Source: an uncultured bacterium (GTDB lineage Bacteria > Fidelibacterota > Marinisomatia > Marinisomatales > Marinisomataceae). Taken from it: 49,399 bases of DNA. The notes below the pieces were generated by a model that saw only the letters and a program-made list of their open reading frames with translations, was not told the DNA's origin and did no database searches. Of this stretch, positions 16,299-24,272 are shown in pieces (position 1 is the stretch's first letter; each line of letters begins with the position of its first letter). The translations under genes were made by a program, and so were the position numbers. The stretch spans positions 1 through 49,399 of the forward strand of contig CALSRE010000001.1 in the NCBI GenBank assembly GCA_943788675.1, written 5' to 3'.

Positions 16299-16826
16299 TT
16301 AATTCTTTTTCTGAAAGAGATATTCTTTCCATCCTTCATTCTTCTGACTAATATATTGATTATAGTACATAAATCTATTCGGTTTTTTTGGAATTTTCAT
16401 CAACTTCATTTCAGCTTCTAAAGGAGTTCTATTCCCTTTTTTTGAATTACAAGGCGAACATGCAATTATTAGATTTTCCCATGTATCTTGCCCCCCTTTT
16501 TGTTTTGGAATAATATGATCAATAGTCAAACTAGACTTTGACCCGCAATATTGGCAGCAAGAATCATCTCTCATAAGTAAATTTTTTCTGTTTAAAACAA
16601 CGTCTAAGCTATTGAATGAAACATACTTTCTAAGCTTTATCACGCTCGGGATTCTCATTTGTAAAGACGGCGAATGAATAAGGTCATCATAATTCATCAG
16701 AATATCAACTTTATCTAGAAAATATAGGCAAATAGCTCTTTTTGAGCTGCATACCCCTAAAGGCAAATAGCTAGCATTTAAGATTAATGTTAAACTGTTC
16801 AAATGGTTAGAATTGCAATCTGACAT
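16299..16826 (-). CDS. HNH endonuclease family protein
   Basis: A 175-residue protein with an HNH nuclease core at about 95-145. Two zinc-binding CxxC pairs (CQYCG and CSPCN) flank the catalytic IDHIIPKQKGG and WENLI. The N-terminal domain (LNASYLPLGVCSSKRAICLYFLDK) is shared by a family widespread in free-living bacteria; its job is not known. No phage, restriction or toxin gene lies nearby, so a housekeeping or repair role is more likely than mobility. It is the first gene of this minus-strand run, diverging from the btuB riboswitch. Confidence 0.85.
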   Translation of the reverse strand: MSDCNSNHLNSLTLILNASYLPLGVCSSKRAICLYFLDKVDILMNYDDLIHSPSLQMRIPSVIKLRKYVSFNSLDVVLNRKNLLMRDDSCCQYCGSKSSLTIDHIIPKQKGGQDTWENLIIACSPCNSKKGNRTPLEAEMKLMKIPKKPNRFMYYNQYISQKNEGWKEYLFQKKN

Positions 16827-17051: not shown

Positions 17052-19118
17052 ATGATACAAAAATCATATATATTACTTGTTATACTTCTTACTAATCTTC
17101 TTGGACAAACTTTTTCAGGTACAATAAAAGATATTTCAGGAGAACCAATCTCTCACGTAATAATTGAGGAAATTAATTCAAAATCAGAAAATACAAACTG
17201 GACTATGTCTGATGAGAATGGCGACTTTACAATTAATGTTAATATTGAATCGGATGTTCTTTTTAAAAGAATTGGATTTAAAAGCCTGACCATCAAACCA
17301 AATGAAAGACTAACTAAATATGTTACAATGCTCTTTGAGAATATCTCGCTTGAAACAGTTGATGTCTACGGAAGAGATAATGATGAATATCTACGAAATA
17401 AAACTACTTATAATAATTTAGGAACTTATTCTAGAGGAGGATCTTTAAACCAAATTCCTTCTTTAGAAATGAGGACATATGGAGGATATGCTGGTGTAAC
17501 ATCTGCTTCATTTGATGGTGGGTATGCTAGACACACTAAAGTACTGTATAATGGAGTAGATTTGACAGATGCTATGAATGGACAAGCAGACCTTTCAACC
17601 TTACCATCATTTGCTCTTAAATCTATAAATTATAAACTTAATTCTGGAACCAAATATGGATCTGGGTCTATTGATGGATCGCTTAATATTAATAATAACA
17701 TAAAAAATAATAACGTTTTCTATGGAATCGGAGATTATGGTTTTTCACAATTTGGGGCTAATTATTCTATTGATAGAACAACATCAAAAAGAAATATAGT
17801 TTTTGGAAAAACATCTTACAACGGAGATTTTAAATTTAAAAACGCAAATGGTGAAGAAATTAAAAGATCTAATAATTATTTAGATCAATTTTTCTTGGCA
17901 ATGGACAGACAGTTTATTGTAAGGGATGATTTGATTGTTAACATAATGACTTTAAAAACAGAAAATACGCGTGGATTATCAGGTAGTACTAGCTTTCCAT
18001 CACCTAACGCAACGAGAACAGATGATTTTGAATTATTTGCACTATCCTTTAATAAGTTTTTTGATAAAGGCTTTTTAAAAGTACAAATGAATCGTTCAAG
18101 CAATGATCAGGTTTATGATGACTCTAATGCATCTTTCCCTGTATTTAGTGAACATAATTTAGATTACACTTCATTTGAATTGAAAGGAAAACAATCGATA
18201 ACCAAATCCCTTAATTATGAAGCTTTGTTTAATCAAAAAACGGAAAGAGTAGATAGTAGTGATTTAGAAAAACGTGAGCTTAAAACAACTTCATTATCAT
18301 TGACCGGTAATTATGTCAATCTTGAAAATGATTTCAAAATATCACCATCATTACGTTTTGATTCTAGAAAAGAAAATGAAAAATCAACTTTTAATCTAGG
18401 ACTTGAAGCGCTAAATCAATTAAATCATTCAAATAGTTCTTTTGATTTCAATTTAGATATAGGGTCTTCATTCCAATTTCCAACAATGAATGACTTATTT
18501 TGGCCAGATGGTTTATACAGCGGTGGAAATGAAGAATTAAAACCTGAAGAAAGTGAGTACATGGCTATATCTATATCAAATCTTTCTTCAATAGGAAAAA
18601 TAAAATTAACTGCCTCATTTAAAGATTATGAAAATTTAATATTATGGCAGCCAAATGAATCCTTAAAATATATTCCAATCAATGTATCTTCAGCGGAAAG
18701 AACATCATATAATCTACAGTACTTAAAAGAGTTTCCTAGATTACAAATGCAACTAACATACAATCTTTATGATTCTATAGATAAAGATATGGATGAAAAA
18801 TTATTATATGTCCCTGATAGTTCAGCTAGCTTATTACTTATCTTCAAACAAAATAACTCTACAAGCTATTCTATAAATTACAAATTAACTGGAGATAGAA
18901 TATTACAATATGGATCTGATTGGGCAAATGCAGTAAAAGATAAGGCTTTTGGATTAGTTAGTTTTGGACTATCAAAAAACATTGCTTTTGGAGGTAATCA
19001 AAATATGGTTAAAGCTAATCTTGCCATCGATAACCTTCTAGATGAAGTATATATTTCAACTATAGGATATCCAGAGCCTGGCAGGAGTATGAATTTAACA
19101 ATTGAATACCAGCTTTAA
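17052..19118 (+). CDS. btuB: TonB-dependent outer-membrane receptor, vitamin B12 uptake (BtuB-like)
   Basis: A 688-residue outer-membrane gated channel. A signal peptide at 1-18 is followed by a CarboxypepD-regulatory-like beta domain (about 20-100; GTIKDISGEPISHVIIEE), a short plug (about 110-215; MRTYGGYAGVTSASFDGG, VLYNGVDLTDAMNG), then a barrel rich in aromatic alternating strands. It ends in NLLDEVYIS, GYPEPGRSMNLTIEYQL, the usual TonB-receptor ending. The cobalamin riboswitch directly upstream identifies the substrate as a corrinoid. GGAGG lies five bases before the ATG. No btuFCD genes are in the window. The 3' end overlaps the convergent barrel gene by four bases. Confidence 0.9.
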   Translation: MIQKSYILLVILLTNLLGQTFSGTIKDISGEPISHVIIEEINSKSENTNWTMSDENGDFTINVNIESDVLFKRIGFKSLTIKPNERLTKYVTMLFENISLETVDVYGRDNDEYLRNKTTYNNLGTYSRGGSLNQIPSLEMRTYGGYAGVTSASFDGGYARHTKVLYNGVDLTDAMNGQADLSTLPSFALKSINYKLNSGTKYGSGSIDGSLNINNNIKNNNVFYGIGDYGFSQFGANYSIDRTTSKRNIVFGKTSYNGDFKFKNANGEEIKRSNNYLDQFFLAMDRQFIVRDDLIVNIMTLKTENTRGLSGSTSFPSPNATRTDDFELFALSFNKFFDKGFLKVQMNRSSNDQVYDDSNASFPVFSEHNLDYTSFELKGKQSITKSLNYEALFNQKTERVDSSDLEKRELKTTSLSLTGNYVNLENDFKISPSLRFDSRKENEKSTFNLGLEALNQLNHSNSSFDFNLDIGSSFQFPTMNDLFWPDGLYSGGNEELKPEESEYMAISISNLSSIGKIKLTASFKDYENLILWQPNESLKYIPINVSSAERTSYNLQYLKEFPRLQMQLTYNLYDSIDKDMDEKLLYVPDSSASLLLIFKQNNSTSYSINYKLTGDRILQYGSDWANAVKDKAFGLVSFGLSKNIAFGGNQNMVKANLAIDNLLDEVYISTIGYPEPGRSMNLTIEYQL

Positions 19119-20740
19119 TCATCAAATTCCCAAATGATTCCAAATGTTAAAAGACTACTCATTGGATTAAAAAATTCATGATTTTCTAATGAGTAGTCTT
19201 CATTTGAATAAAATTTTCCTAAAGCATTTTGGAGTCGTACAGTTAGCAGTACATCAGATATTGCAATCTCTGTATCAAGAGAAATATTGATATATTCATC
19301 ACTATCAATACTATTATTTCTTTCAGGCATATTTTTAAAATAATTAAAACTATAGTCTGAATTATTTTTTGACATGTACTGAAGACTAAGTTTTCCATCA
19401 ATTCCCAGATTATTTTCTATGAAAGATAAGCTGTAAAGATAATCTAAATTAAGAATATGAGCTCTATTTGAACTAATTAAACTATCATCAAAATTATATG
19501 AATGATTAAAATTTATTATACCATACTTGAATGGAATTTCAATCTTCATCTGCAATGACAACATGTCATCGTTTATAAATTTATACCTATCTGCCTCTGG
19601 TATAACAAAATTATTAGCTTTCACATATTTCAAAGATGCTGAAAAATCTGTTTCGGTATTAAAATAATAAGTGAGCGTTAAATTTTTCCACTCCTCAACT
19701 TCATTACCGCTAAATCGATCATTAGCAATGAAAACTTTTTCTGATTCAATATAATCCAAAGTGTTCATGAGGACTATTGAATGTTGATTTCTAGTCTTCA
19801 ATACTACATCGAGATTTCCAAAAATATTTTTATAATAAATATTAGGCTTGATATGATCTTCAAATAAATCAACACCATATATCAATTCTCCAACGGGGAA
19901 AGCACTTCCTGTTGGAACAGAAAAATTATGGTTTTGACGTGTTACACTTAAAGAATTTAATGCAAATCTTTTGAAAGATTTTTTATCTTCATAAAAACTA
20001 TTATTAAGAATAATATTTAAAAATAAAATATTATTTTTGTGTATTTCAGCTATAAATCTATTTCTATCTAAATCATATTTACTATTAATATTATACTCAT
20101 TTATTACTGAAGATTCGTATTTACTTATATGATTTAACTGTAAATCAAAATTAAAATCATTTTTACTAAAACTATTTCCTATGGTTAAAGAAATAAAATC
20201 AGAAAATTCATTATTTGGCACAGAGAAATTACTATCCAATGATGAATCAAAAAGGAAATTAGAATTTTCTCTGAAATACCCTAATGAAGAATAAATCTTA
20301 TTTCTTTCAAAACTCTTTGAATAATCCAGCTTATAGAACAAGCTCAATGGCGGTGTTTCTGAATCAGCAAATTCAGAGTATTGGCCAAAGAAACTTTTTT
20401 TCATGCCAATAAATTCAAAATTATTATCTTTTGAATGCTTTTTCAATCCAACGCTTAGCTTATCAAAGCCATAGTCACCAAACTCGTATATAAATTTACT
20501 TTTCACGTAAGTTGAATCGTTAGGCAATTTTTCAAAAGTTAAATTTGTAAATTTTTTTCTAAAATTTTTAGATGATCTATCAATCAAAAGTTTGTTAAAA
20601 GATATATCAGTATTCCAAGCTAATTGATTGTTACTTAATGGTACCGCAAATTGATTTGAAACATCAAACGGAATAACCTCTTGTCCAATTGATATACTTA
20701 ACGAACAAATTAGAAAAAGAAGTTTATATTTAAAATTCAT
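19115..20740 (-). CDS. putative outer-membrane beta-barrel protein, no plug domain
   Basis: A 541-residue protein of unknown function. A signal peptide (LLFLICSLSISIG, cut near residue 19) is followed by beta strands with alternating aromatic and polar residues, many Asn/Ser/Asp turns, and a C-terminus (LTFGIIWEFDD) with the aromatic ending of outer-membrane barrels. VRLQNALGKFYSNEDY before the end resembles the last strands of TonB-dependent receptors, but there is no plug or TonB box. It overlaps the YhaM-like gene upstream by 11 bases and is convergent with btuB. It could be a porin or a receptor partner; the substrate is unknown. Confidence 0.65.
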   Translation of the reverse strand: MNFKYKLLFLICSLSISIGQEVIPFDVSNQFAVPLSNNQLAWNTDISFNKLLIDRSSKNFRKKFTNLTFEKLPNDSTYVKSKFIYEFGDYGFDKLSVGLKKHSKDNNFEFIGMKKSFFGQYSEFADSETPPLSLFYKLDYSKSFERNKIYSSLGYFRENSNFLFDSSLDSNFSVPNNEFSDFISLTIGNSFSKNDFNFDLQLNHISKYESSVINEYNINSKYDLDRNRFIAEIHKNNILFLNIILNNSFYEDKKSFKRFALNSLSVTRQNHNFSVPTGSAFPVGELIYGVDLFEDHIKPNIYYKNIFGNLDVVLKTRNQHSIVLMNTLDYIESEKVFIANDRFSGNEVEEWKNLTLTYYFNTETDFSASLKYVKANNFVIPEADRYKFINDDMLSLQMKIEIPFKYGIINFNHSYNFDDSLISSNRAHILNLDYLYSLSFIENNLGIDGKLSLQYMSKNNSDYSFNYFKNMPERNNSIDSDEYINISLDTEIAISDVLLTVRLQNALGKFYSNEDYSLENHEFFNPMSSLLTFGIIWEFDD

Positions 20741-21611
20741 CCTGCTTCATAAAATTAATTCTTGAATCCATTAAATTTATTGTATGCAATAAAACGGCTT
20801 CAATAATTTGAGGCTCAACAGGGCTTTGCCACTCTTTTCTACCTTGATAAGATAAAATTAAATGCTCGAGTTTAAGTTTATCATCCTCTGGAAAATTTTT
20901 AATCTCTGCAATATATTTGTTTACAATATCCCTTGAAAGAATAGCGTTGCCAACAAGAGCTTTATGATTTGATTTTGCAATAGATGAGCCTAGATTTATT
21001 GAATAAAGCTTTCCAATCTGATGTAAGCAAGCGCCCGTAGCAAGCAAGTCAATATCTATATCGTAATGCATACCAACTTGTTTTGCAATTTGTAATAGCG
21101 ACACCGTCTGCTCAATTAATCCACTCTGGTAATTATAATGATAGGATATGCTTGCGGGATATATTTTAAACTTATCTTTATGGTCGGCTAAAATGCTTTT
21201 CGTTAGTTTTTTAAAATGACTTTTAGAAATTGCATTTACATCTTTTACTAACAACTTCCAAAGCTCATTTGGATTTTTTTTGGAAACTGGAATTAGGTCT
21301 GAAGATTTAAATCCAAATTTTTCATATTTGCTTTCATTTGCTTTAGAAATATTTTCAATTCTTATCATCAAATTTTCTCCAAATTGATACGTAGAGCCTT
21401 TAACAGCAACTGGATCGCCGCTTTCAAATTTTTTTGAAAAGGTGTCAACTTTATCCCAAATTCTAGCTCTAATTACTCCCGACTTATCTTGAAGTAGTAA
21501 GTTTAAGTAGGGAGAACCATCTCTTTTTTTTTGATTTTTTTTCTCAATACATAGATAAAAACCTTGAAACCTCATATCAGCAACTAGATTTGTAATTAAG
21601 ATAGATTTCAT
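20730..21611 (-). CDS. YhaM-like OB-fold/HD protein with degenerate metal site
   Basis: A 293-residue relative of the 3'-5' exoribonuclease YhaM. Residues 10-95 form the OB nucleic-acid-binding fold (LNLLLQDKSGVIRARIWD). Residues 150-285 follow the HD domain closely (YNYQSGLIEQTVSLL, LLATGACLHQIGK, LILSYQGRKEWQSP, EAVLLH). The metal-binding residues are mostly replaced: Gln168 for the first His, Gln198 for the Asp of the HD pair, Asn222 for the next His, Tyr255-Gln256 for the His-His pair, and Asn279 for the last Asp. The protein also ends about 25 residues early compared with Bacillus YhaM. It probably binds RNA or DNA without cutting. The frame is intact, so the changes are not decay. Confidence 0.8.
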   Translation of the reverse strand: MKSILITNLVADMRFQGFYLCIEKKNQKKRDGSPYLNLLLQDKSGVIRARIWDKVDTFSKKFESGDPVAVKGSTYQFGENLMIRIENISKANESKYEKFGFKSSDLIPVSKKNPNELWKLLVKDVNAISKSHFKKLTKSILADHKDKFKIYPASISYHYNYQSGLIEQTVSLLQIAKQVGMHYDIDIDLLATGACLHQIGKLYSINLGSSIAKSNHKALVGNAILSRDIVNKYIAEIKNFPEDDKLKLEHLILSYQGRKEWQSPVEPQIIEAVLLHTINLMDSRINFMKQDEF

Positions 21612-21615
21612 TTAG

Positions 21616-22080
21616 CTAGTTTTTAGCATGAGAACACTGATCATTATTGCAAGATGCAGAAAGTTGGTGAACTCTTTTTGTAACCCTTAGATTTAGATCA
21701 TCTGCAATCTTCTTCTCAATACTTGAAATATTATTATCATAAAATTCAAATATTTCACCGCAATCCTCGCAAACTATATGATCATGCTTTGGACTAATTG
21801 TCTTTTTGTTGTGCTCATAGAGAAATTTTCCAGAATCAAGGGTAATTTTTTTTAATAAACCATGCTTTACAAACACATCTATTGTTCTATATAAAGTTGC
21901 TCTAGATACATTTATTTTTTTCTTTTTTAAATCAACTAAAATTGTTTCAATATCTCGATGCTTATCAGATGAAGAAAGTTCATCCCAAATGTCAAGGCGT
22001 TGTTTAGTTGCTCTTAAACCTTCGCTTTTAAGCACAGCCTCAACCTCAACATGAAATCTACATGGTATTAAATTTTGCAT
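21616..22080 (-). CDS. Fur-family metal-dependent transcriptional regulator
   Basis: A 154-residue regulator. The N-terminal winged helix (GLRATKQRLDIWDEL; INVSRATLYRTIDVFVKHGLLKK) binds DNA. The dimerisation domain has HDHIVCEDCGEIFEF with the first CxxC zinc pair, and the C-terminus has a second pair (SCNNDQC). Sequence alone does not distinguish iron (Fur), peroxide (PerR) and zinc (Zur) sensing. It lies between pcrA and the YhaM-like gene. No iron or zinc transport genes are nearby. Confidence 0.9.
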   Translation of the reverse strand: MQNLIPCRFHVEVEAVLKSEGLRATKQRLDIWDELSSSDKHRDIETILVDLKKKKINVSRATLYRTIDVFVKHGLLKKITLDSGKFLYEHNKKTISPKHDHIVCEDCGEIFEFYDNNISSIEKKIADDLNLRVTKRVHQLSASCNNDQCSHAKN

Positions 22081-22106: not shown

Positions 22107-24272
22107 TTAATCTATTTTTTTTAAGCGAGCATATTTGACAATTAATTTCTTTCTTAAGCCACCGTCAAATTCAACGCCAACCTTTTGGTTTTCACCTGTT
22201 CCGCTTAAAACTAAAATTGTACCAACTCCAAATAAATTATGCTGAACTTGATCCCCAATCTTAAAATCATCAAATTCGGTAACAGTTCTTGATATTTGGA
22301 TTTTTTTCTTACTACCTGTCCCTACCACTCTTCTTGTATATACAGATTTGTAAGCCTTTACCTTAATCACATTTTTATCAATCTCATCTAAAAAATCAGA
22401 CTGGACAAAAGAAGTTGTATTCATAGCTCCAAATCTTCTTCTATACTTTGCATTGAGTAAATAAACTTGATTCATGGCTCTTGTAACAGCAACATAAAAC
22501 AATCTTCTCTCTTCTTCCATTTGATCAGGTCCATCATCAATACGTACCAATGGAAATAACCCTTGCTCTAATCCAGCAACAAATACGGTAGAAAACTCTA
22601 AACCTTTTGCAGCATGAACGGTCATTAAGGTTATCGAGTTTTCTTTATCATCCCAGTCATCAATATCTGTAAATAATGATATTTCCTGAAGAAAATCTTT
22701 TAGATTTCCTCCTGTTTGATCAGAAAATTTATCAACTGAAGCTTTTAATTCTTGTATATTATTATAACGATCTTGCTCTGCAGGATTGTTCTTGTAATAA
22801 TTTTCAATATTAAACTCTTCCAATAAAGTTCTAAGCAATTCTTTAGGATCAAGCGTTTCTAATAGATTGCTAAACTTGGTTATAGAAGCGTGAAAGTTTT
22901 CAATTGAATCTTGCTGCTTACCTCTTAGCTTTATTTCTCTGCACTTTTCCAAACTATCGAATAATGAGCTTTTATTTTTTGCAGCTAGCTCAATAAACAT
23001 TTTAATTGATTTTTCACCAATTCCTCTAACAGGGAAATTTATAATTCTTTTCAGAGCTATATCATCACTAGTATTAGCAACTAATTTTAAATAAGCTAAT
23101 ACATCTTTTATCTCTTTGCGGTCATAAAATTTAGTTCCACCAACTATATTATATGGCAAACCTTCTTTAACCATTGCTTGCTCAATAGATCTTGATTGGG
23201 CATTAGTGCGATAAAGAACTGCGAAATCTTTAAATGTATTTTTATTCAACTTTATTTCAGACTTTATTGAATCGCAAATAGCATTTGATTCTTCTTCATC
23301 GCTTCCAGTGGATATAAAAGAAATTTTTTCGCCCTTGCCTTTGGTAGCAACCAGCTTTTTTTCTGCTCTGTTTTTATTATTTGAAACTACAGACCATGCA
23401 CCATCAAGAATTCTTTGAGTTGAGCGATAATTTTTTTCAAGCTTAATCTCAATGTTTTTTGCAAATACATCTTGAAAATTTGTGAGGATATTATCAATGT
23501 TTGCGCCTCTCCATCCATAAATTGATTGGTCATCATCTCCAACAACAGTAATATTTTGATGTTTACCTGCTAAAAGAGAGACTATTTCAAATTGTGGAGA
23601 GTTTGTATCTTGGAATTCATCAACTAAAACATACTTCCACGAATTTTGATAGTAGTCCAATATTTTTTTATTTTCTTTTAAAAGACGAATTGGCAACAAA
23701 AGTAAATCATTGAAGTCTAAAGCATTATTGGATTTTAATGTATCGCAATAAGCTTTATAAACTTCTGCAATTTTTTCGTCTTCAAAAGTTTGAGCTTTTG
23801 ATTCGATATCTTTAATTGAGAGATTGGCATTTTTAAATTTATCAATCTGCATTTTTAAGAAACCAATGTTTAACTCTTTAAATTCAGAAAGATTTAAATT
23901 TTCTATCACCTCTTTAATAACTGATTTTTGATCTACTGTGTCATAAATAGTAAAACTCGAATTATAATTATCATTCAATGATGCTATATGCATTCTAAGC
24001 ATTCGAGCGCCAATTGAATGGAATGTTCCAACATTAACTCCATCACAGGATATACTTTCCTGAATTCTAACTTTCATTTCAGCAGCAGCTTTGTTGGTAA
24101 ATGTGAGAGCTAGAATTTCATTAGGCTTGAAAAAATTTTCTTTGATAAGATGCCAAACTTTATATGTTAAAACTCTGGTCTTACCGCTTCCTGCGCCAGC
24201 AAATACTAATACAGGTTTGTTTACAGTTTGAACAGCTTTTAATTGTTGAGTATTTAAGTCTTGTAGTTTCAT
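22107..24272 (-). CDS. pcrA: UvrD/PcrA-type superfamily 1 DNA helicase
   Basis: A 721-residue 3'-5' helicase of DNA repair and replication restart. Motifs in order: VFAGAGSGKTRVLTYKV (Walker A), VDEFQDTNSPQFE (Walker B/II), VGDDDQSIYGWRGA (III), LEKNYRST (IV), LMTVHAAKGLEFSTVFVAGL (V) and EEERRLFYVAVTRAM (VI). The C-terminus has the PcrA Tudor-like domain (GDQVQHNLFGVGTILVLSG), which favours PcrA over Rep. The start overlaps the end of mltG by four bases. Confidence 0.95.
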   Translation of the reverse strand: MKLQDLNTQQLKAVQTVNKPVLVFAGAGSGKTRVLTYKVWHLIKENFFKPNEILALTFTNKAAAEMKVRIQESISCDGVNVGTFHSIGARMLRMHIASLNDNYNSSFTIYDTVDQKSVIKEVIENLNLSEFKELNIGFLKMQIDKFKNANLSIKDIESKAQTFEDEKIAEVYKAYCDTLKSNNALDFNDLLLLPIRLLKENKKILDYYQNSWKYVLVDEFQDTNSPQFEIVSLLAGKHQNITVVGDDDQSIYGWRGANIDNILTNFQDVFAKNIEIKLEKNYRSTQRILDGAWSVVSNNKNRAEKKLVATKGKGEKISFISTGSDEEESNAICDSIKSEIKLNKNTFKDFAVLYRTNAQSRSIEQAMVKEGLPYNIVGGTKFYDRKEIKDVLAYLKLVANTSDDIALKRIINFPVRGIGEKSIKMFIELAAKNKSSLFDSLEKCREIKLRGKQQDSIENFHASITKFSNLLETLDPKELLRTLLEEFNIENYYKNNPAEQDRYNNIQELKASVDKFSDQTGGNLKDFLQEISLFTDIDDWDDKENSITLMTVHAAKGLEFSTVFVAGLEQGLFPLVRIDDGPDQMEEERRLFYVAVTRAMNQVYLLNAKYRRRFGAMNTTSFVQSDFLDEIDKNVIKVKAYKSVYTRRVVGTGSKKKIQISRTVTEFDDFKIGDQVQHNLFGVGTILVLSGTGENQKVGVEFDGGLRKKLIVKYARLKKID

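Follow-up and report, generated by a model that had tools for sequence, protein, structure and literature searches.

We analysed a 49,399-nucleotide (nt) stretch of DNA (hereafter the window; positions 1 to 49,399 of contig CALSRE010000001.1, assembly GCA_943788675.1) from an uncultured ocean bacterium of Candidatus Marinimicrobia with a genome of ~1.0 Mb (95.7% complete). The window encodes a homologue of the exonuclease YhaM, made of an OB fold and an HD domain, in which five of the six metal-ligand positions are replaced. This protein is probably a YhaM-derived pseudonuclease that has been retained to bind single-stranded RNA or DNA without a metal. The gene is maintained and not decaying, its pocket having been respecified, and the recurrence of site loss across the phylum goes beyond the single-sequence view of an earlier note on this DNA. 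The gene, its domains and the former ligand positions are as follows; the five residue lines derive from the alignment to the solved YhaM chain 9h3f and from the genus alignment.

20730..21611, minus strand: probable YhaM-derived pseudonuclease gene, 293 amino acids (aa) plus stop (Pfam, NCBIfam and PDB matches, genus alignment, dN/dS)
21336..21611, minus strand: N-terminal OB fold of nucleic-acid-binding type, residues 1-92 (PF01336; the AlphaFold model resembles an archaeal RPA OB domain, Z 13.4)
20733..21164, minus strand: HD-fold domain without the metal-ligand set, residues 150-293 (model superposition on YhaM 9h3f)
21108..21110, minus strand: Gln168 for a ligand His (9h3f His164)
21018..21023, minus strand: His197-Gln198 for the His-Asp pair (Gln for Asp195)
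20946..20948, minus strand: Asn222 for a ligand His (9h3f His219)
20847..20849, minus strand: Tyr255 for a ligand His (9h3f His251)
20775..20777, minus strand: Asn279 for a ligand Asp (9h3f Asp275)

The ligand set was taken as H164, H194, D195, H219, H251 and D275 of 9h3f. This assignment to YhaM is inferred, because the spacing fits the pattern H..HD..H..H..D given for HD sites in the accessible part of PMC8177086 and because all six residues were kept in 64 of 68 named copies from outside the phylum. These 68, two of them titled only 'bacterium', are the 80 named loci minus 12 from Marinimicrobia, a sample that is biased since the scan kept the best 80 of 107 relatives, with a capped number of rows, and one search pattern touches the HD motif. 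The four exceptions comprised one copy cut by a contig end and three from Actinomycetota (L113, L115 and L116) with Glu at the fourth, H219, position and standard residues at the other five. Against this pattern the window protein reads Q-H-Q-N-Y-N, His197 (9h3f His194) being the sole ligand kept, and of the catalytic HD-superfamily motif H...HD...D it retains only the His of the HD pair. With Gln, Gln, Asn, Tyr and Asn at five of six positions, the HD pocket has lost the capacity to bind the usual metal centre.

The earlier note had described a near-total loss of ligands, and its residue numbers (Q168, Q198, N222, Y255, Q256 and N279) were exact, aligning with H164, D195, H219, H251, H252 and D275 of 9h3f. 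Two points are corrected here: His197 of the HD pair is retained, and Gln256 is no loss but an ordinary residue in this lineage, as 17 of 30 same-order relatives carry Gln, and none carries His, at position 252 of 9h3f. Ligands present at shifted positions were rejected by the sequence alignment, with which the superposition on 9h3f agreed in extent. In that superposition the AlphaFold model (54 sequences; mean predicted local distance difference test 90.8, predicted template modelling score 0.81, one poor loop at 209-219) matched 9h3f across residues 108-293 with Z 27.6 and 1.6 Å over 180 residues at 29% identity. The structure prediction that had been proposed as a check thus bore out a kept HD fold. 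The OB part of the model was closest to OB folds of archaeal RPA, PolC and POT1 (Z about 12-13).

The ORF (open reading frame) starts with ATG and stays open over all 293 codons, as had been reported, with the strand here corrected to minus. Pfam placed the OB fold PF01336 at residues 28-89 (E 8e-7) and the HD domain PF01966 barely over threshold (22 bits against a cut-off of 22), and the NCBIfam YhaM model aligned to residues 17-290 (E 3.7e-42, 144.5 bits). A YhaM-like protein with an OB fold was therefore correctly recognised from the letters. It has the YhaM motifs SGL, IGK, EHLIL and EW.SP. Five intact-site copies (three from Marinimicrobia, at 213-220 bits, together with L079 and L114) scored 203-399 bits against the NCBIfam model, whose cut-off of 460 bits was reached by none of the six proteins tested. 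Because intact-site copies also fall below it, this cut-off does not discriminate, and it was rejected as a sign of divergence in the window protein. The best solved relatives were the YhaM chains 9h3f (E 1.8e-33) and 9o7t, and the nearest named relative among the best 80 of 107 was Candidatus Marinimicrobia UBA2980 (L054; 68% identity). The window protein therefore shares with YhaM/Cbf1 (COG3481, PRK13480; 9h3f, 9o7t) the order of an N-terminal OB fold and then an HD-fold domain, the HD fold itself and the motifs, and differs from it in the replaced ligands and in a missing C-terminal tail ('WT..RNYF'). The early end of the protein is real, copies of the genus measuring 291-295 aa (n = 20) against 316-338 aa in 30 same-order relatives. 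YhaM averages ~325 aa according to the available portion of PMC11347170.

The altered site is a trait of the whole genus. Q-H-Q-N-Y-(N/S) was found in 20/20 genus copies, with Ser for Asn279 in two, and the five-position replacement is therefore not due to chance. The gene was present in 20 of 24 genus genomes with no stop within the match; no yhaM match was found in the other four, which are 56-81% complete. Ratios of nonsynonymous to synonymous substitution rates (dN/dS), derived from dN and dS, were 0.04-0.11 across 13 genus pairs, those of the three pairs with dS > 1 being rough, and indicate strong purifying selection. Invariant positions among the 20 sequences numbered 66/144 in the HD domain, 31/92 in the OB fold and 18/57 in the linker. 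Mean pairwise identity in the genus was 0.85 in the pocket stretches (residues within four of the former ligand positions, the ligands themselves excluded), 0.71 in the rest of the HD domain and 0.74 in the OB fold; the corresponding values for 36 intact same-order copies were 0.75, 0.60 and 0.65. Because these pocket stretches vary least within the genus protein, selection still acts on the pocket, which now carries different residues. A search of 11 genus genomes (85-98% complete) turned up no second YhaM in any of them; a second, intact YhaM was rejected as a candidate, the other matches being weak and lying in 701-702-aa frames in 7 of the 11 genomes. Close homologues with an intact HD site, which the earlier note had named as a counter-sign if found in the same lineage, were absent from the genus (0/20). 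Such copies do occur in the same order, which suggests loss from an active ancestor. A homologous fold, lost catalytic residues and purifying selection, the marks of a pseudonuclease, are all found in the window protein.

We further investigated the site across the phylum. Of 175 genomes scanned, each 80% complete or better, 166 had a match; seven or more of these matches were weak (E 5e-8 to 6e-4) and are probably other OB proteins. Among 140 copies tabulated, one per genome and some from genomes outside the 175-genome scan, the six residues were intact in 81 and not intact in 59, all 59 within one class; seven of these 59 rows have a gap or unknown residue among the six positions, and rows of family f16 are hard to align. 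Outside the window's class (families f20-f29), 30/30 tabulated copies were intact. The losses differed in kind. In a group of four families only Asp195 was changed, to Gly, Ala or Ser (7 copies), families f10/f15 carried Ser-His-Asp/Asn-His-His-His (5 copies), and further losses occurred in several lineages of f9 and f7. A 145-row tree (the 140 rows minus four partial ones, L233-L236, plus 9 outside rows), built with the ligand columns and two more removed, required 11 changes between intact and lost, all of them losses if the root was intact. Two of these, L166 and L195, are one sequence each, which errors in metagenome-assembled genomes could inflate, and L181 is backed by the partial L233. 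This tree joins some long branches and places two f23 copies, which do not belong to the class, within its part. A careful tree of 60 hand-picked rows, with the f16 loss rows and L195 left out, needed 8 changes. According to the accessible part of PMC6143742, Marinimicrobia are known for parallel genome streamlining. Sites were lost also in genomes of 2-3 Mb (G025 and G038, about 3 Mb), so loss is not only a matter of streamlining, which was rejected as its sole cause.

Family f16 displayed a different outcome. Its genera g35-g37 and g39-g41 (11 genomes) carried a heavily eroded or shortened copy, and g34 was intact in 5/5. These loss rows are orthologues by position, with uvrD and fur directly upstream at 11/11 loci (L225-L232, L234-L236). 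Around the ligands, nine intact f16/f18 copies had a pairwise identity of 0.72 and seven f16 loss copies one of 0.38. Identity to the intact same-order consensus was also lower in the loss set, at 0.36 against 0.52 in the OB fold, 0.29 against 0.60 around the ligands and 0.17 against 0.41 for the remaining HD domain, so that the OB fold is the better kept part. There thus appear to be two modes of loss, one in which the pocket was rebuilt and conserved (f1, the family of the window's genus) and one in which the HD domain eroded (f16), with the OB fold seemingly the common denominator of the loss lineages. In genus g39, L234:1500-1810 retains ~107 aa with the OB fold before a stop, adjoining fur and uvrD.

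How a YhaM without its metal site might still act is suggested by mutants of the Staphylococcus aureus enzyme. In the portion of PMC11347170 available, D193A is reported to bind RNA but to lack activity, apart from partial degradation at high concentration, and the double mutant H192A/D193A is likewise reported inactive; the same source notes that homologues of YhaM in Firmicutes were originally identified as DNA-binding proteins with a possible part in replication. In the alignment, by hand count, Gln198 of the window protein falls on S. aureus Asp193, and this substitution together with the four further changes leads us to propose a metal-independent single-strand binder. Its ancestor would have been the Mn-dependent 3'-5' exonuclease YhaM, a hexamer active with Mn or Co, with the OB fold and HD scaffold retained. 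The OB fold would grip single-stranded RNA (or DNA) with no need of a metal, possibly at RNA 3' ends, and the polar pocket, which formerly received the 3' end, may still add a binding or partner surface without cutting. The earlier suggestion of a non-cutting binder or regulator is partly supported, by the kept fold, the lost ligand set, purifying selection and the lack of a second YhaM. Its non-cutting part follows from the residues, by which the protein presumably has no nuclease activity. More speculatively, its ligand might be RNA, and it might shield or remodel RNA ends in cells that have no RNase R match.

Several observations weigh against this proposal. In the accessible part of PMC11347170, S. 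aureus HD mutants lose most multimeric assembly, so that loss of the metal site might weaken binding instead of freeing the protein for it. Within the genus, conservation of the HD part equals or exceeds that of the OB fold, which is more than a pure OB binder would require. Higher pairwise identity in the OB fold than in the rest of the HD domain is found in f16 loss copies (0.45/0.29) and in five f7 loss copies (0.69/0.49), but the contrast is not special to loss copies because intact f16/f18 copies show it too (0.64 vs 0.48). A long stem branch (1.2-1.27 changes per column) leads to the genus, whose exact place in the tree is therefore unsure. Lineages with partial loss (Ser-His-Asp-His-His-His, or Asp195 alone lost) may stay active. 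In genus g16 of family f7 (G041, G108, G109 and G110), yhaM seems lost, with no match in three genomes and a weak one in the fourth, and the function is dispensable there. Finally, His197, H250, H276 and D282 are conserved and could hold a non-standard metal.

This last point bears on the idea that the protein is still an enzyme, with a shifted or single-metal site on His197 and nearby His, Asp or Tyr residues and a weak or different hydrolase activity. All four residues are kept in 20/20 genus copies, and HD proteins are chemically diverse in the part of PMC8177086 available. However, the H250 and D282 positions are invariant in 81/81 intact phylum copies and the H276 position is His in 65/81, so the fold accounts for the conservation of these three. 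Five of the six ligands were replaced together, and D193A alone is reported to inactivate the S. aureus enzyme in the accessible portion of PMC11347170; we regard a surviving enzyme as improbable. A ligand sensor, in which the metal-free pocket binds a nucleotide or small molecule and thereby regulates either binding by the OB fold or a protein partner, in the manner of the RelA HD domain, is unlikely on the whole. The new polar residues are fixed in 20/20 genus copies, bar the two with Ser for Asn279, and no part of the protein is better conserved than the surroundings of the pocket, a constraint that a mere scaffold would not require; in other loss lineages, however, the residues differ. That the gene is simply decaying under relaxed selection in small genomes, heading for loss with no function left, is hardly credible. 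Eroded or truncated copies elsewhere (f16; L234) and the absence of the gene from g16 fit such a course, but in the window's genus the dN/dS values are low, the gene is free of stops in every genome with a match, those without one are incomplete and synteny is conserved, and sites have been lost in the ~3 Mb genomes too.

Beyond metal-independent binding by the window protein, we tentatively propose that an old, nuclease-independent second role of YhaM in Marinimicrobia may have let the catalytic site go about ten times, and that the genus pocket may have been rebuilt as a fixed site (Gln-His-Gln-Asn-Tyr-Asn) that binds an RNA 3' end or a nucleotide without metal. If true, this would give bacteria an equivalent of the fungal Ssd1 pseudonucleases and define a new class of OB-HD proteins that bind RNA ends.

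RelA is a (p)ppGpp enzyme with no OB-HD architecture and no exonuclease ancestry, and cold-shock domains are OB-type folds. The closest precedent for the window protein is provided by the fungal Dis3L2/Ssd1 pseudonucleases, likewise repeatedly inactivated 3'-5' exonucleases, in which, in the part of PMC8097288 available, the active site was lost at least four times with the RNA-binding N-terminal cold-shock domains conserved. They differ in belonging to the RNase II family of eukaryotes, with an RNB catalytic fold. The RelA pseudo-hydrolase HD domain, described as a regulatory switch in the accessible part of PMC8012599, resembles the window protein in keeping an HD fold without the hydrolase site. 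Archaeal RPA and POT1 have a similar OB fold, not in an HD protein, and this shared fold shows no function.

The window protein is probably a pseudoenzyme of a nuclease family, and the recurrence of loss is what is unusual. YhaM homologues (287 extracted, 258 in the tree) are all said to have invariant HD sites in the available portion of PMC11347170. What is new here is that one bacterial class breaks this rule about ten times independently (8 to 11 in the two trees) while keeping the gene. Among the literature matches listed, which cover few subscription journals, there was no report of a naturally inactive YhaM; the 'YHAM' of PMC13180657 is the name of an AsCas12f variant and irrelevant to YhaM. 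Recurrent loss with the gene kept points to a second YhaM function that may also operate in the active Firmicutes enzymes, and the lineages with a rebuilt pocket (f1) or an eroded HD domain (f16) offer natural variants for probing it. For annotation, homology would label these proteins exoribonucleases and so credit the genus with an activity it probably lacks, alongside its missing RNase R.

The exonuclease set of the genus is very small. RNase R (RNB) gave no match in 14/14 genus genomes, and the 570-600-aa DHH form seen in most relatives, which we take to be RecJ, was found in 0/24. A DHH match was present in 22/24, its size presumably that of an NrnA-like protein, and RNase_PH matches were present in 19/24. 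Two RNase_PH domains lie in a 703-aa frame of the window's genome that, by domains and size, we assume to be PNPase. For a link between RNase R loss and site loss the picture was mixed, as RNB was present in several other loss lineages. RNase Y gave no match over the cut-off in 61 genomes. Three other HD proteins of the window's genome, PgpH-like, CCA/poly(A) polymerase and RelA/SpoT-like (HD and PolyA_pol domains; the names PgpH and RelA/SpoT given by reading the sequences), were rejected by their identity as replacements for YhaM. At L051:1282-3417 in the window's genome, a PgpH-like HD protein appears split over several short TTG-started frames, possibly through a frameshift or assembly error.

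The gene lies in a run on the minus strand with the following neighbours.

21616..22080, minus strand: Fur-family regulator, immediate upstream neighbour (PF01475, E 7e-29; adjoins yhaM in 20/20 genus loci)
22107..24272, minus strand: UvrD/PcrA-like helicase ORF, upstream in the same run (named by reading the sequence)
19115..20740, minus strand: 541-aa outer-membrane-barrel-like ORF with a signal-peptide-like start (by reading; overlaps the yhaM 3' end by 11 nt)

The run with a Fur regulator and a barrel gene starting inside the 3' end of yhaM was thus described correctly. The barrel-like ORF had no match in the Pfam or NCBIfam scans. Conservation of this order was observed in the genus, with uvrD, fur and yhaM adjacent in 20/20 loci and the barrel gene next in 18/20; L019 and L020 have a TonB-receptor-like gene in its place. 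Matches to yhaM and the barrel gene overlap only in the window and L002, are 41-60 nt apart in 16/20 loci and give way to another gene in 2/20. In the intact relative L055 (2122-8078) the order is fur-feoB-GNAT-yhaM-ECF-S-like-barrel, the ECF match being below the Pfam cut-off. Direct adjacency of fur and yhaM, without feoB between, was found in the window's genus (window 19115-22080) and the degenerate f16 genera. Whilst feoB occurred in 34 non-genus loci (some being one genome twice), it occurred in 0/20 genus loci; flanks were only 1.5 kb in most loci. It persists in one f15 locus and three f10 loci whose site is changed. This neighbourhood is context and no evidence of a metal-related function.

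Elsewhere in the window, a TonB-dependent receptor-like ORF with a plug domain (17052-19118, plus strand) lies tail-to-tail with the barrel gene (4-nt overlap), and a 175-aa ORF (16299-16826, minus strand) carries a CxxC..DHIIPKxxGG pattern, which we take to be HNH-endonuclease-like.

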